64,000 bases of DNA, from contig NZ_CP112874.1 of the NCBI RefSeq assembly GCF_029910235.1, positions 4,516,501 to 4,580,500 on the forward strand. Reading direction: 5' to 3'. This document shows positions 22,854 through 33,213 of the stretch, in pieces. Under the pieces are notes generated by a model. That model worked only from the letters and a program-made list of their open reading frames with translations, was not told the origin of the DNA and made no database searches. The translations under genes and the position numbers were made by a program. Position 1 is the first letter of the stretch, and every line of letters begins with the position of its first letter. This stretch comes from Pseudanabaena galeata CCNP1313 (GTDB lineage: Bacteria; Cyanobacteriota; Cyanobacteriia; Pseudanabaenales; Pseudanabaenaceae).

Positions 22854-23324
22854 CTAAAACTGCCAATTTTCAGGATTAGTCAAAACGTACTCGCGCAGAC
22901 GATGTAGTTCTTGATCATTTCTAATAATTCTTTCATGATAGTTTCGTTGCCAGATAGACACACCCAAATTTTGATTAATTTTATTGATTTTGCGGGCAGA
23001 AATGGATTTGAAATTTTGAATGATTGTTGCTAATGAATAGAGTGTTTCAGCCTGTTCTAAAATGACAATAATTCCATGCAGATGATCGGGCATGAGGATA
23101 AATTGATCAAGTTCCACGTTAGGGAAATGCTGCGGAATTTTTTGCCAAATCGCAGAGATAATCTGACCTGTGACATTTAGCTGCATTTCCCCATTATTCA
23201 CTTCTCCAAATAGATGTTGTCTTTGAAAGGTACAAATAGTTACAAAATAAGCTCCTGATTGAGAATAGTCATAGCCCTGTAAACGAATAGAGCGTCGATG
23301 ATGGATTTCAGGGTTGTAAGCCAT
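22854..23324 (-). CDS. REP-associated tyrosine transposase (RAYT, Y1/HUH family)
   Basis: 156 residues. IHHRRSIRLQGYDYSQSGAYFVTICT is the typical RAYT start. MPDHLHGI holds the HUH metal-binding histidines, and NYHERIIRNDQELHRLREY holds the likely catalytic tyrosine. RAYTs are single-copy, domesticated-looking relatives of IS200/IS605 transposases linked to short palindromic repeats (REPs). No tnpB is next to it. The window is full of palindromes that could be substrates, though no direct match between this gene and one family was shown. Confidence 0.9.
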   Translation of the reverse strand: MAYNPEIHHRRSIRLQGYDYSQSGAYFVTICTFQRQHLFGEVNNGEMQLNVTGQIISAIWQKIPQHFPNVELDQFILMPDHLHGIIVILEQAETLYSLATIIQNFKSISARKINKINQNLGVSIWQRNYHERIIRNDQELHRLREYVLTNPENWQF

Positions 23325-23386: not shown

Positions 23387-24373
23387 TCAAGAGGGAATTT
23401 GGACAAAATTTGGGTCGAAAGAACGCTGAGACTTGAGAACACCAAAGACCTGTCGCAATAGCTTGTGCATGACCGCACCAATGACCGACATTTTGGACTT
23501 ACCCTTAGCTGTAAGGCGAGCGCAGAAAGCAGCAATAGGCGAATTATAACGACGAGCAACAATCGCAGGCATAAACAAAGCTTTACGCAAACGGGAATTA
23601 CCAATTTTCGATAAACGCGGCTTACCATGAATCGAAGAACCAGAAGAAAACTCACGGGGAGTTAACCCCGCAAAAGCAGCTAACTGATCGGCAGTATCAA
23701 AAGCCGAAATATCACGAATTTCCGCCAGTAATACAGTTGCGGTCAGTTCAGCAATACCAGGAATGGAAGTCAACAAATCCCGTTGAGATTTCAAATGAGG
23801 ATGTTGATCAAAGTGCTGACGGATCAATTGCTTGGTCATTTCAATTTGCTCTTTGAGAAAATCAATGTGAGCGTTAATTGCCTCGACCAAAATAGGGTCA
23901 GCCGTGGCAAGACGATTCTGCTCTTGCTGCTGCATAGAGGTTAAGCTGTCTAAACGATGCACCAATGCTTGGAGTTGCTCAATTTCTAATGGTGGTGGTG
24001 TCCAAAGAGCAGGTTTTAAAGCTGCACAAAATCTAGCAATCACTTTGGCATCAGCACGGTCTGTCTTTGTCCGACTTAACTCACTCTTACCAAAGGCTTT
24101 GGGACGAGATGGATTGACGATACTTACTTTGTACCCTGCCTCTACTAAGAATCTAGCTAAGGCATTGCCGTATGTGCTGGTAGCTTCCATACAACTATGC
24201 AAGTTTGTCACATTTTGAAGGTTTAGCCATTCTTGTAATTCAGCAAATCCTTCAGGATTGTTGCCAAATACTTTACTCTTGATTTTGGCGTTGCCTTGGA
24301 TTAGGGCAACATCAAACTTGGCTTTGCTGATGTCTATGCCTAAAACATCTAATACTTCATTGCTATTGTTCAT
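23387..24373 (-). CDS. IS110-family transposase
   Basis: 328 residues, full length. The N-terminal DEDD RuvC-like domain has VLGIDISKAKFDV, SCMEATSTYG and TKTDRADAKVIA. The C-terminal Transposase_20 domain has LTSIPGI, FAGLTPREFSSGSS with the likely catalytic serine, GKPRLSKIGN and LRKALFMPAIV. IS110 enzymes use a bridge RNA from the element's non-coding end to choose donor and target. No frameshift, so it could be active. Confidence 0.95.
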   Translation of the reverse strand: MNNSNEVLDVLGIDISKAKFDVALIQGNAKIKSKVFGNNPEGFAELQEWLNLQNVTNLHSCMEATSTYGNALARFLVEAGYKVSIVNPSRPKAFGKSELSRTKTDRADAKVIARFCAALKPALWTPPPLEIEQLQALVHRLDSLTSMQQQEQNRLATADPILVEAINAHIDFLKEQIEMTKQLIRQHFDQHPHLKSQRDLLTSIPGIAELTATVLLAEIRDISAFDTADQLAAFAGLTPREFSSGSSIHGKPRLSKIGNSRLRKALFMPAIVARRYNSPIAAFCARLTAKGKSKMSVIGAVMHKLLRQVFGVLKSQRSFDPNFVQIPS

Positions 24374-24692: not shown

Positions 24693-24705
24693 GATAATTG
24701 CTGTA

Positions 24706-24741
24706 AACGAAAAAGCCGCGCTCAGCGCGGCTTTTTCGTTT
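24706..24741. terminator. Terminator hairpin
   Basis: CGAAAAAGCCGCGCT-CA-GCGCGGCTTTTTCG, a strong stem with A/T flanks at the stop of the minus-strand fusion gene; it can work in both directions. Confidence 0.8.
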
Positions 24742-27016
24742 AAGGATTTGGTGGACACCAGAATAGATTTTGACTAGATATGCCAAGAGATTCGAGAATC
24801 TCCTTCATCGTTTTAGTACATTCCATCCAATAGTCTTGGTTGTCATACATCCAGTCGGGACTGAAATGGAGATCGTAATGGAGTAGATTTGGGATATCGG
24901 CAAACTCATCAGATGTTTGCTTAGAAATAAGCAGCACTCGGAATGGTTTGCCTTTGCATTTAATCGTTAGCTTCTCGATCAGGTCTAGCACATAGTCGCG
25001 ATTAGTTACGCCAGTACGCACAAATAAAACTTCATCGCAATGATCCAGAGTGTATAAAAATCTCTTTGCCCGCGCCGAATAGCGAACCCGCATTCTTTCA
25101 TGAATCGGCTGCATATTATTCGCAGGATCGTCGGTATCTTCGACTTCATGCCCAAAGGATAAGCCAGACCATTTGGAATGATAGACTCTCCCCTCTTCAA
25201 TATTGTAATGGAGATAATCAGGGTTCCACATGTCTTGGAAATCATTCATTACCATATCTGACACATCGCCTAGATTTGTGGAACGAGCCAAATCAAAGGG
25301 GAACGCTGGCCCATCATATTCCATTTTATACAGGAGCATTCTCGCCGCGCAGCGATCGCCTAAAGGCAAAATGGCAATGCGATTAATTTCTGACAGTTTA
25401 CATTTGTATTTGAGCAGCATTGTCGATTTGAATGGAGCCTTGACTCGACTCTCTAAACCCTGTTCGCCGATCATCATCGTCCGAAATGGAGCTTCTAGAT
25501 TAGCAGGATCGTGATAAACACCTGCAGGCATGGCTGCTAGAGCAGACCGAATCTCTTTCCACATCGGATGAATGTTATATTCTTCTTCAGATTCATTGAT
25601 AATCCGAATCGTGCGATCGCCTTCCTTGAGAATACCTAGATGTCCATCATAGTAAAGAATTTCTGCGTTTTGAGGAGCAAAAAACTTAAGCGCAGAGCAA
25701 TATTGCAGATCGACTCCAATCGGAATTTTAACTGTATTCTCAATCGAGCCATTAAACCCAACTGAAAGTAATGGAACCAAGCCTAACTCATCATTTTTAG
25801 AGACATATGATGTGCCAAAGGTTAAGCCAGCCTTACGCTTCAGTGCTTCTTGTAATTCCTTCCAAGTAGGAGTGATATTGTAAGTATATTCAGACTTATT
25901 GATAATTCTTAAGGTCTGAGCTTCAGGGTTAGCAAACACTTGAAACCCATATTTATCTTCATAAATAGAAATCTCGGATGTTTTGCTAGAATGCGATATT
26001 AGTGTCTGTGCTTGCGATCGCTGAATGCGATCAATCTGGAAAATGTCGAGATTAATCGCTTGAAACATTAGCTCATGCCCTTTGGTATTGGGATGAGCCA
26101 CATCTAGAGATATGTCATGTTTCCAGCCTCCATAACCATTGTCCAACACATCCAACCAATCGAGAATAGGAACTCCCCACTTCAACATACGATGGTAAGT
26201 ATCGCGTAGCAGCCAATTATGTTCGGGGTTGTAGTCTCCATGCGGATATAGACCACCAATAATAGGCAATGCACCTAAATCTTGAGTCATCTTGATTAAT
26301 TGCAGTAACCCACTCTCAAAGCGACGTTGCACTGCTCGGCGATCATGAGGACGACAATAAGCTAGCCCTTCATTTCCCAAGGAAAGAGAAATGATCACTA
26401 CATCTGGTTTTTCAGGCGCAACAACCGAAGTAAAGCGTTCAATCGTGCTGGTGACATTTGCCCCCAATTGTGATCGATTGACCAGTTGATGCCCATATTT
26501 TTCTTGCAAAGCTTGTCCTAGATGACTTGCCCAACCTTTGAGTAGCCAAGCACTACATCCCATCGCCACAGAACTACCGATGACTAATACTTTAAGTCCA
26601 TCTGGTGAGGGTATTGCTGATTTTGAGTCTGGAGCTAAGGCGATCGCCTTTTCCAAATATCCATAGGGATATGCAGGAATATAACCAAAAGCTTGATCAT
26701 CCACAATAATTGTCGAGGTTGAGGAATTAATATGATCTAGCTCAATCGGAACCCATCGATTAGCATCATTTTCACATTCCCATACAGTTTTACCGTTGGC
26801 TGCAACTCGTACATACTTATACTCAATTTTTGCTTCAGAGTCAGGCAAGGTTAACGGATCAATTTCTACATCTACCCACCAAATTGGGTAGCGATCGCCT
26901 GATGTACGCAAAGGTAAATATTTTTTAATGTCCCACGATCCCATTTGAGGAATCGAACCGACGATACCAATCATTTCCCCACTTTGAGTGGGAGCTTTTA
27001 CCTGAAATCGATACAT
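24740..27016 (-). CDS. CBM20 - SGNH hydrolase - DUF1796 fusion protein
   Basis: 758 residues from the ATG at 27016 (MYRFQVKAPT). The frame to 27151 reads through a palindrome and is rejected. Residues 1-105 look like a CBM20 starch-binding module (IVGSIPQMGSWDIKKYLPL, then EYKYV and W...N..W). Residues 142-330 are an SGNH/GDSL-like hydrolase: VIGSSVAMG in place of GDS, LSLGNEGL, and the D-H block DVAHPN (Asp305, His308). Two copies of an LRIINKSEYTYNI..TWKE segment follow (about 368-392 and 469-491). Residues 547-740 resemble DUF1796, a papain-like peptidase family (AILPLGDRCAARMLL, PFDLARST, SFGHEVEDT). No signal peptide. A carbohydrate-linked enzyme is inferred; substrate unknown. Confidence 0.7.
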   Translation of the reverse strand: MYRFQVKAPTQSGEMIGIVGSIPQMGSWDIKKYLPLRTSGDRYPIWWVDVEIDPLTLPDSEAKIEYKYVRVAANGKTVWECENDANRWVPIELDHINSSTSTIIVDDQAFGYIPAYPYGYLEKAIALAPDSKSAIPSPDGLKVLVIGSSVAMGCSAWLLKGWASHLGQALQEKYGHQLVNRSQLGANVTSTIERFTSVVAPEKPDVVIISLSLGNEGLAYCRPHDRRAVQRRFESGLLQLIKMTQDLGALPIIGGLYPHGDYNPEHNWLLRDTYHRMLKWGVPILDWLDVLDNGYGGWKHDISLDVAHPNTKGHELMFQAINLDIFQIDRIQRSQAQTLISHSSKTSEISIYEDKYGFQVFANPEAQTLRIINKSEYTYNITPTWKELQEALKRKAGLTFGTSYVSKNDELGLVPLLSVGFNGSIENTVKIPIGVDLQYCSALKFFAPQNAEILYYDGHLGILKEGDRTIRIINESEEEYNIHPMWKEIRSALAAMPAGVYHDPANLEAPFRTMMIGEQGLESRVKAPFKSTMLLKYKCKLSEINRIAILPLGDRCAARMLLYKMEYDGPAFPFDLARSTNLGDVSDMVMNDFQDMWNPDYLHYNIEEGRVYHSKWSGLSFGHEVEDTDDPANNMQPIHERMRVRYSARAKRFLYTLDHCDEVLFVRTGVTNRDYVLDLIEKLTIKCKGKPFRVLLISKQTSDEFADIPNLLHYDLHFSPDWMYDNQDYWMECTKTMKEILESLGISSQNLFWCPPNP

Positions 27017-27057
27017 AGAAATGTCTTCTGTGGATAGGACTTGATTAGTTCTGCCTA

Positions 27058-27168
27058 CTGTAGCTACTTGTCTTAAGGCAAGTCCCAACCCGATTGATGA
27101 GATGCTGCGCGAAGCACAGCATCTCATCAATCGGGTTGGATGTCTTAACAAGATCGGCTATAGCTATA
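27058..27168. repeat. Family C-like palindrome, copy 2
   Basis: CCCGATTGATGAGATGCTG pairs with CAGCATCTCATCAATCGGG, followed by ATGTCTTAACAAGATCGGC, as in the right arm of the element at 39951. It lies upstream of the fusion gene and causes its false N-terminal extension. Confidence 0.6.
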
Positions 27169-27311
27169 ACAATCATTAGTATTTAGGGCGATCGCCTCAG
27201 GTTTGAACTGTCTTAGAAACTATCATTCATTAGGTTTTAAGTCTGTTTTAGAAACTACAGCTAGCTATCCAGAAATATCGTTATTGATTGCTCAAAATTG
27301 GAGAACAACAA

Positions 27312-27372
27312 AATAAGAAACCGATTTTTGATGGTGCGGCTTTGCCGCACCATCAAAAATCGGTTTCTTATT
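27312..27372. repeat. Family H palindrome, copy 2
   Basis: AATAAGAAACCGATTTTTGA pairs perfectly with TCAAAAATCGGTTTCTTATT around a GGTGCGGC hairpin. With the element at 27058 it fills much of the 516-base gap between the fusion gene and pgk; the last 150 bases presumably hold the pgk promoter. Confidence 0.7.
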
Positions 27373-27532
27373 AAATTACAGCGCCATGATAATTCAATTT
27401 CATCGGCAGAAAATAAGAGGTAACACAAAGTGCTGTCTCTTATTTTTTGGAGTTTTAAACTGGACGGAATTCGGTAAAATTATTAAGACATTGTAAAAAA
27501 GCAACTTTATATACTACGAGTATAAAAATTTT

Positions 27533-28735
27533 ATGGCGAAGAAGAGTCTTGCAAGTTTGACTGCTGCGGAATTAGCAGGCAAGAAAGTTTTAGTAAGAGT
27601 TGATTTTAACGTTCCTCAAGACGAAACAGGCAAAATTACCGACGATACCCGTATTCGTGCAGCATTACCAACCATTAAGTACCTCACCGAAGCTGGCGCT
27701 CGCGTAATCCTCACCAGCCACTTCGGCAGACCCAAGGGTGTTACCGAAAGCCTCCGCCTCAACCCTGTAGCAGTGCGTTTATCTGAGCTACTTGGTCAGC
27801 CCGTTGTCAAAACCGATGATTGCATTGGTGACGCAGTTGCCGCTCAAGTTAATGCTCTCAACAACGGCGATGTCGCTTTGTTAGAAAATGTGCGTTTTTA
27901 TCCTGAAGAAGAAAAGAACGATCCTGAATTTGCTAAAAAATTAGCATCTTTGGCAGACATTTATGTAAATGACGCTTTTGGTACTGCTCACCGCGCCCAT
28001 GCCTCAACTGAAGGCGTAACCAAGTTCATCAGCACCTCAGTTGCTGGTTTCTTGCTTGATAAAGAATTGCAATACTTGAGCGGTGCGATCGACAATCCTA
28101 AGCGTCCTCTAGCAGCGATCGTTGGTGGTTCTAAGGTTTCTAGCAAGATCGGCGTAATCGAAACCTTGCTCGACAAAGTTGATTATTTGTTGCTCGGCGG
28201 CGGCATGATCTTCACCTTCTACAAGGCTCGTGGCTTGAGTGTTGGTAAGTCTCTCGTTGAAGAAGACAAGCTAGACTTGGCTCGCGCTCTTGAAAAGAAA
28301 GCCGCAGAACGTGGGGTCAAGTTTTTGCTGCCTACTGATGTAGTTGTAGCTGATAACTTCAAGCCTGATGCTAATGCCCAAACCGTGAGCATTGACAATA
28401 TTCCCGATGGTTGGATGGGCTTGGATATTGGTCCTGACTCCGTAAAGGTATTCCAAGCTGCGCTTGCTGAATGCAAATCTGCAATCTGGAATGGTCCAAT
28501 GGGTGTATTTGAGTTTGATAAGTTTGCGGTTGGTACTGAGGCGATCGCGCATACTCTTGCTGATCTCACAGCCACTGGCACAATCACCATCATCGGCGGC
28601 GGCGACTCCGTAGCTGCGGTTGAAAAGGTTGGTGTTGCTGACAAGATGAGCCACATCTCCACTGGTGGTGGTGCAAGCTTAGAACTGCTCGAAGGCAAAA
28701 TCTTGCCTGGTATCGCAGCTTTGAACGAAGCTTAA
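27533..28735 (+). CDS. pgk: Phosphoglycerate kinase
   Basis: 400 residues, standard length. It interconverts 3-phosphoglycerate + ATP and 1,3-bisphosphoglycerate + ADP in glycolysis and the Calvin cycle. Motifs: [53 protein letters not shown] and the terminal [13 protein letters not shown] with [13 protein letters not shown]. Start ATG at 27533 after a short AT-rich leader; terminator at 28734. Confidence 0.97.
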
Positions 28736-32535: not shown

Positions 32536-33213
32536 ATGATGATTTTAGATCGCGTTGTGCCGTTTGGACGGTCTAAAACTGAATATGAGTTAATGTTTGC
32601 GCTATCTGAAAGCGATCGCCTTAAATCCATAGTTGGCATCGGTGACGGGCCAGCAAGCTTTAATGCGGAAATGACTGCCGCAGGTTATCAAGTTACATCG
32701 ATCGATCCAATTTATCAATTTACTGGCTTAGAAATTAAAAGTCGCTTTGATGCTTGCGTAGATACCATTATCGAACAGGTTCGCAGTACCCCAAATAACT
32801 GGGTCTGGAGCTATCACAAATCTCCTGAAGATTTACGCGCAAATCGGGAGAAGGCTATTTCGTTATTTCTTGAAGATTATGATCACGGCACAATTGAAGG
32901 TAGATATCTCAATGCTGAATTACCCAAACTAGATTTTCAAGACAAGCAATTTCAGCTTGCGCTATGTTCACATTTTCTATTTCTCTACTCTGAGCATCTC
33001 AGTTTTGAATTCCATTTAGAATCAATCCGCGAACTATGTCGGATTGCTGAAGAAGTAAGGATTTTCCCATTATTGAATTTGGCTCAAGCGCGATCGCCTT
33101 ATATCGATGAAGTTTGTAGCATCTTAGCCAAAGTAGGAATTAGCTCAGAAATTATGCAAGTGGACTACGAATTACAAAAAGGTGGCAATCAGGCGATTAT
33201 TTTTCGACAATAA
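32536..33213 (+). CDS. Class I SAM-dependent methyltransferase-like protein
   Basis: 225 residues, with a second ATG at codon 2. The N-terminal Rossmann-like motif IVGIGDGPASFNAEM, then an acidic SIDPIYQF at the end of strand 2, fits a SAM-binding fold. Later FQLALCSHFLFLY matches motif IV. The substrate is unknown; similar small methyltransferases are often annotated as hypothetical. A terminator follows immediately. Confidence 0.65.
   Translation: MMILDRVVPFGRSKTEYELMFALSESDRLKSIVGIGDGPASFNAEMTAAGYQVTSIDPIYQFTGLEIKSRFDACVDTIIEQVRSTPNNWVWSYHKSPEDLRANREKAISLFLEDYDHGTIEGRYLNAELPKLDFQDKQFQLALCSHFLFLYSEHLSFEFHLESIRELCRIAEEVRIFPLLNLAQARSPYIDEVCSILAKVGISSEIMQVDYELQKGGNQAIIFRQ

Follow-up and report, generated by a model that had tools for sequence, protein, structure and literature searches.

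A single gene in the cyanobacterium Pseudanabaena galeata CCNP1313 encodes a protein in which a CBM20 starch/glycogen-binding module is followed by an SGNH/GDSL hydrolase, a duplicated middle region and a DUF1796 domain. As judged from sequence alignments, this fusion protein is conserved end to end in cyanobacteria, where it has no name in the libraries searched, and it co-occurs with an AMP-forming acyl-CoA synthetase, a new link that is absent from the first-pass annotation of this DNA. We see an even chance that the fusion protein, with the synthetase as its partner, performs glucan-directed acyl-ester chemistry, and glycogen is its likely target.

The gene lies on the minus strand of the window (the whole 64,000-nucleotide stretch analysed, NZ_CP112874.1) at positions 24740..27016 including the stop codon, and its 758-codon reading frame begins at an ATG at 27016 that is kept in relatives. 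The first-pass annotation, which was accurate except for omitting the strand, had described four elements in this order in one protein; the open reading frame, the Pfam matches and a comparison of the repeats agree with it, and CBM20, SGNH and DUF1796 all exceed their Pfam gathering cut-offs. Its statement that a signal peptide is lacking also holds, since the first CBM20 strand starts at residue 2 and the N-terminus (M-Y-[RQ]-F-Q) is conserved across relatives, leaving no room for an export signal; from its sequence, the protein is thus predicted to be cytoplasmic. AlphaFold2 modelled the whole protein with a pLDDT of 85 and a pTM of 0.75, and residues 335-758 with a pLDDT of 87.5 and a pTM of 0.82.

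A perfect inverted repeat with 19-nt arms (24704..24742) overlaps the stop codon and could be a terminator-like element for the minus strand. Long near-perfect palindromes flank the gene at 27085-27139 (26-nt arms) and 27312-27372 (29-nt arms), the exact core patterns of which occur once and three times in the genome, respectively. Across the interval 27017-27532, the gene faces a divergent phosphoglycerate kinase gene (27533-28735) here and in the near relatives (L002-L006), and not in others. Downstream lie, on the minus strand, a Y1 transposase gene (IS200-like, possibly REP-associated; 22854-23324) and, adjoining it, an IS110-family transposase gene (23387-24373), the latter not seen at the corresponding place in the same near relatives. 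A 225-residue open reading frame at 32536-33213 has no Pfam match at E 0.001.

The source genome carries one copy of the fusion gene. When species genomes were scanned, 49 loci came up, each of them in a cyanobacterium, with dozens of full-length relatives, which rules out a unique chimera or an assembly artefact; no full-length relative occurs in plasmids or viral contigs, so that a plasmid or viral gene is ruled out as well. Identity to the relatives is 73-97% within Pseudanabaena, near 60% in Oscillatoriales and Nostocales, and 49-57% in distant forms; among the latter are Synechococcus M44_DOE_062 and a MAG that bears the label Gloeobacterales. The protein tree places Pseudanabaena and Nostocales in separate groups. 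Of 373 genomes drawn evenly from across the phylum, 24 carry the fusion gene and one further genome (G118) carries a remnant (L077) with an internal deletion of ~290 codons and a frameshift; in another remnant (L076, genome G167), the C-terminal end alone is clear. This patchy distribution may reflect loss, transfer or both. Residue conservation was evaluated on an alignment of 67 sequences.

The CBM20 module (residues 3-92; 26741..27010, minus strand) matches Pfam CBM_20 (PF00686) with an E-value of 4e-19 and 68.6 bits against a gathering score of 23.3. Members of the CBM20 family commonly, though not universally, possess a pair of tyrosines at binding site 2. We mapped the site residues by alignment with the starch-binding domain of Aspergillus niger glucoamylase and its published description, in which W543 and W590 form site 1 and Y527 and Y556 form site 2 (PMC10180094). 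At site 1, W28 and W79 are invariant (67/67) and K67 is kept in 61/67 sequences. Site 2 is incomplete: Y43, aligned with Y556, is present in all 67 sequences, and the residue at position 12, the counterpart of Y527, varies. The fusion protein resembles in this respect GWD3, an accepted CBM20 protein in which site 1 alone is thought to be functional (PMC6243121). The Pfam match and the conserved site 1 uphold the earlier identification of CBM20, and the module, with site 1 intact, is a predicted glucan-binding module.

In 23 loci, an AMP-forming acyl-CoA synthetase gene lies near the fusion gene; one of these synthetases is of a second type (M2). The first type, M1, forms an orthologue group with 62-79% identity to the query P0002 and matches the MatB malonyl-CoA synthetases 4fuq and 3nyq along almost all of its length (E 4e-82), yet it scores 393.5 bits against the NCBIfam malonyl-CoA synthase model PRK07514, below the cut-off of 558. 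M1 is therefore best described as MatB-like, short of a curated MatB assignment. Within the 373-genome draw, M1 is present in 16 genomes, all of them among the 24 fusion carriers (hypergeometric probability 1.5e-22, ignoring the kinship of the genomes), and it is absent from both remnant genomes, G118 and G167. In one family (f7), M1 and the fusion gene occur together in 10 of 10 genomes, and at least 13 relatives have neither; M1 is also present in two further carriers, G376 and G382. M2, which is 36% identical to M1, occurs at E 1e-150 only in the four Pseudanabaena genomes of the draw, all of which carry the fusion gene and lack M1. Only in one of the Pseudanabaena loci, that of P. biceps O153, does M2 adjoin the fusion gene, and the pattern, being restricted to a genus, is weak on its own.

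Shared ancestry and neighbourhood could by themselves account for this link, with the fusion protein acting alone, an explanation that we rate as unlikely while giving it real weight. Where M1 lies a few kilobases from the fusion gene, it does so in three arrangements: on the same strand in Oscillatoriales, convergent in Nostocales, and upstream in G143, from a further family. In favour of this explanation, the shared gene order is an inherited one in each of the two orders, Nostocales and Oscillatoriales, and 8 of the 24 carriers have no M1. Against it, M1 is retained in ten genomes where it is distant from the fusion gene or sits on another contig (G191, G109, G119, G123, G151, G101, G149, G153, G229 and G278), indicating that proximity is not the cause of the co-occurrence. 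Four carriers (G131, G286, G177 and G332) have neither ligase, which also counts against a glucan acyl-ester activity with a synthetase partner. In 36 flanking loci, no other ligase of the M1/M2 superfamily was seen, and the 20-kb flanks hold no further conserved neighbour besides the ligase, apart from lineage-local synteny.

The SGNH hydrolase domain (residues about 140-329; 26030..26599, minus strand) was assigned from its predicted fold and a match to Pfam Lipase_GDSL_2 (PF13472) over residues 145-316 (E 7.1e-14, 53.1 bits against a gathering score of 32.9). Residues S149, G185, N215, D305 and H308 are invariant (67/67). The first-pass annotation had pointed to GSS in place of the canonical GDS and to a triad of Ser148 or Ser149 with Asp305 and His308. 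The GSS motif is present in all 67 sequences with the nucleophilic serine kept; the aspartate of GDS block I is non-catalytic, and the GDS spelling is not needed for membership of the SGNH/GDSL family. Of the two serines, S149 (26570..26572, minus strand) aligns with the nucleophile of the thioesterase TesA and is the predicted nucleophile, and D305 to H308 (26093..26104, minus strand) would supply the Asp-His pair. In one carrier, G143, the triad aspartate is replaced by glutamate and a 10-A run interrupts the reading frame; the break is a frameshift in the linker, natural or a sequencing error, and gene fission was ruled out.

The best matches to the predicted SGNH fold are carbohydrate esterases, including acetylxylan esterases; PbeAcXE (7toh) superimposes with a Z-score of 20.4 and an rmsd of 2.3 Å over 196 residues, and TesA scores lower (Z 17.4). 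PbeAcXE, Axe2 and TesA share with the fusion protein the SGNH fold and the invariant Ser-Gly-Asn-His/Asp set; unlike it, they lack CBM20, the paired middle domains and DUF1796, and have GDS instead of GSS. That TesA-type thioesterases share this fold weighs against the acyl-ester reading on glucan, and it raises the alternative of an acyl-CoA thioesterase or lysophospholipase acting on ligase-made acyl-CoA or lipid, with CBM20 merely localising the enzyme and linking lipid and glycogen pools. Such an enzyme would be in keeping with the TesA-type matches in sequence and fold and with a partner ligase that, from its family, makes acyl-CoA. We nevertheless regard it as rather doubtful, given that carbohydrate esterases are the best fold matches and that the protein retains two more modules resembling those of glucan enzymes.

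These modules constitute the middle region, in which the first-pass annotation had seen two copies of an RIIN.SE..YNI..WKE segment. The repeat is confirmed and extends beyond that segment: in a profile-profile comparison, residues 335-445 match residues 440-545 with 98.2% probability (E 4.5e-14, 85 columns), and control stretches of the same protein gave 2.5% or less. The region has no Pfam match, and a PDB sequence search gave chance-level matches only. By predicted fold, middle domain 1 (residues about 344-450; 25667..25987, minus strand) resembles domain C of CGTases and amylases, with VIA-align Z-scores of up to 8.6, and middle domain 2 (residues about 451-539; 25400..25666, minus strand), which contains an invariant YNIHPMW motif, resembles GH13 domain C with Z-scores of 7.2-8.7, including that of the Nostoc debranching enzyme (NPDE, 2wcs). 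Z-scores below 8 can reflect a merely common arrangement, and those of the middle domains are 7-8.7; the best Foldseek E-value for the region was 1.9e-3. In favour of the domain-C assignment, nearly all of the 50 fold matches listed are amylase-type GH13 enzymes, and both copies match them. The predicted folds thus resolve the middle region into two tandem β-sandwiches with a GH13 domain-C-like fold, which replaces the earlier view of a duplicated linker or an unnamed domain. A wider family of such middle domains was ruled out, as none was found outside the fusion protein in the 373 genomes. GH13 amylases and CGTases share two components with the fusion protein, domain E of CGTases corresponding to CBM20 by sequence and GH13 domain C to both middle domains by fold. 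The fusion protein differs from them in having no GH13 catalytic barrel, in the duplication of the domain-C-like module, and in a middle region without sequence match to solved structures.

The GH13-type modules, together with the fact that the nearest SGNH folds deacetylate plant polysaccharides, are also compatible with a degradative esterase. This enzyme would deacylate imported or recycled glucans or other polysaccharides for a phosphorylase or debranching enzyme, and the ligase would salvage the acid, with no acylation of the cell's own glycogen. We find this improbable, as there is no signal peptide and no transporter or glycoside hydrolase is a recurrent neighbour in the different lineages.

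The DUF1796 domain (residues about 541-758; 24743..25396, minus strand) was correctly recognised in the first-pass annotation: residues 550-698 match Pfam DUF1796 (PF08795) with an E-value of 4.3e-8 and 33.6 bits against a gathering score of 23. C556 (25349..25351, minus strand), D575 and H623 are invariant (67/67) and are also conserved in distant DUF1796 proteins. Close matches to the predicted fold are mainly viral DUF1796 models, from giant viruses, and a PDB sequence search returned no match. Giant-virus and small-genome cyanobacterial DUF1796 proteins belong to the same Pfam family and share the Cys, Asp and His; the domain is stand-alone or glycosyltransferase-fused elsewhere, whereas here it forms the C-terminal part of the fusion protein. 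In a small-genome cyanobacterium, a GT2 glycosyltransferase is fused to DUF1796 (L138:730-2271, minus strand), and a giant-virus protein named glycosyltransferase matches DUF1796 by fold. The fusion to GT2 suggests, by analogy, a glycan-related role for the domain, on which no paper was found in the open literature searched. The earlier papain-like label found no support in the fold searches, which returned no papain-fold match, weak evidence in that DUF1796 was modelled within longer constructs. It is very improbable that DUF1796 is a papain-like peptidase trimming a glycogen enzyme, with SGNH as an accessory, since the Pfam family name and the invariant Cys and His that would suit a peptidase are set against this missing fold match, the fusions to GT2 and, by fold, to the glycosyltransferase-named protein, and a ligase left unexplained.

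We return to glucan-directed acyl-ester chemistry, for which the domains, their conservation, the predicted folds and the co-occurrence are observed, and from which we infer substrate, chemistry and direction. That a cytosolic SGNH enzyme is linked to a CBM20 module and to two modules of glucan-enzyme type suggests that its scaffold is glycogen. The first-pass annotation had proposed glycogen or a modified surface sugar; glycogen stands as the likely target, and the lack of an export signal makes a surface sugar the less probable choice. CBM20, through its intact site 1, and probably both domain-C-like modules would anchor the protein on glucan. SGNH enzymes proceed via an acyl-serine that is resolved by water or by a hydroxyl; here, S149, D305 and H308, with G185 and N215 as the oxyanion residues, would form the acyl-serine, and the domain would then either hydrolyse O-acyl groups from glucan or transfer them to it. 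As the acyl-serine is open to both outcomes, the MatB-like synthetase found in most carriers fits either as the maker of the acyl donor or as the enzyme that re-activates the released acid. DUF1796, through C556, H623 and D575, may contribute a second, glycan-related Cys-dependent activity. A more elaborate and rather unlikely version is a reversible acyl mark on glycogen, in which the synthetase makes acyl-CoA, DUF1796 and SGNH divide writing and erasing between them, and CBM20 and the domain-C-like modules serve as anchors; such a mark would parallel the phosphate cycles of starch in plants and of glycogen in animals. A search of the open literature turned up no account of acylated glycogen in cyanobacteria, which counts against glucan acyl-ester chemistry, as do the MatB score of the ligase below the curated cut-off and the altered triad and broken frame of G143.

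Each single domain is already known. Our searches covered the open literature, which misses most subscription papers; there we found no paper describing the architecture, in line with the first-pass remark that no protein with this domain order was known, and neither the repeat assignment nor the ligase link was found described. The closest analogues are laforin and plant GWD3, which are intracellular, have an N-terminal CBM20 and act on a covalent mark carried by storage glucan, as predicted for the fusion protein. Their catalytic parts are a phosphatase or a dikinase, in contrast with the unrelated SGNH and DUF1796 domains here, and the predicted mark is acyl, not phosphate. Laforin is a CBM20-linked enzyme that removes covalent phosphate from α-glucan, GWD3 is one that adds it, and, to our knowledge, covalent editing of storage glucan has been described for phosphate.

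In summary, these findings hint that some cyanobacteria may attach acyl groups to their storage glucan or remove them from it. The pairing of the fusion gene with the ligase gene offers a testable lead for DUF1796. If the acyl-ester reading is true, acyl editing of cyanobacterial glycogen would be a new parallel to phosphate editing, and would bear on the control of carbon storage.
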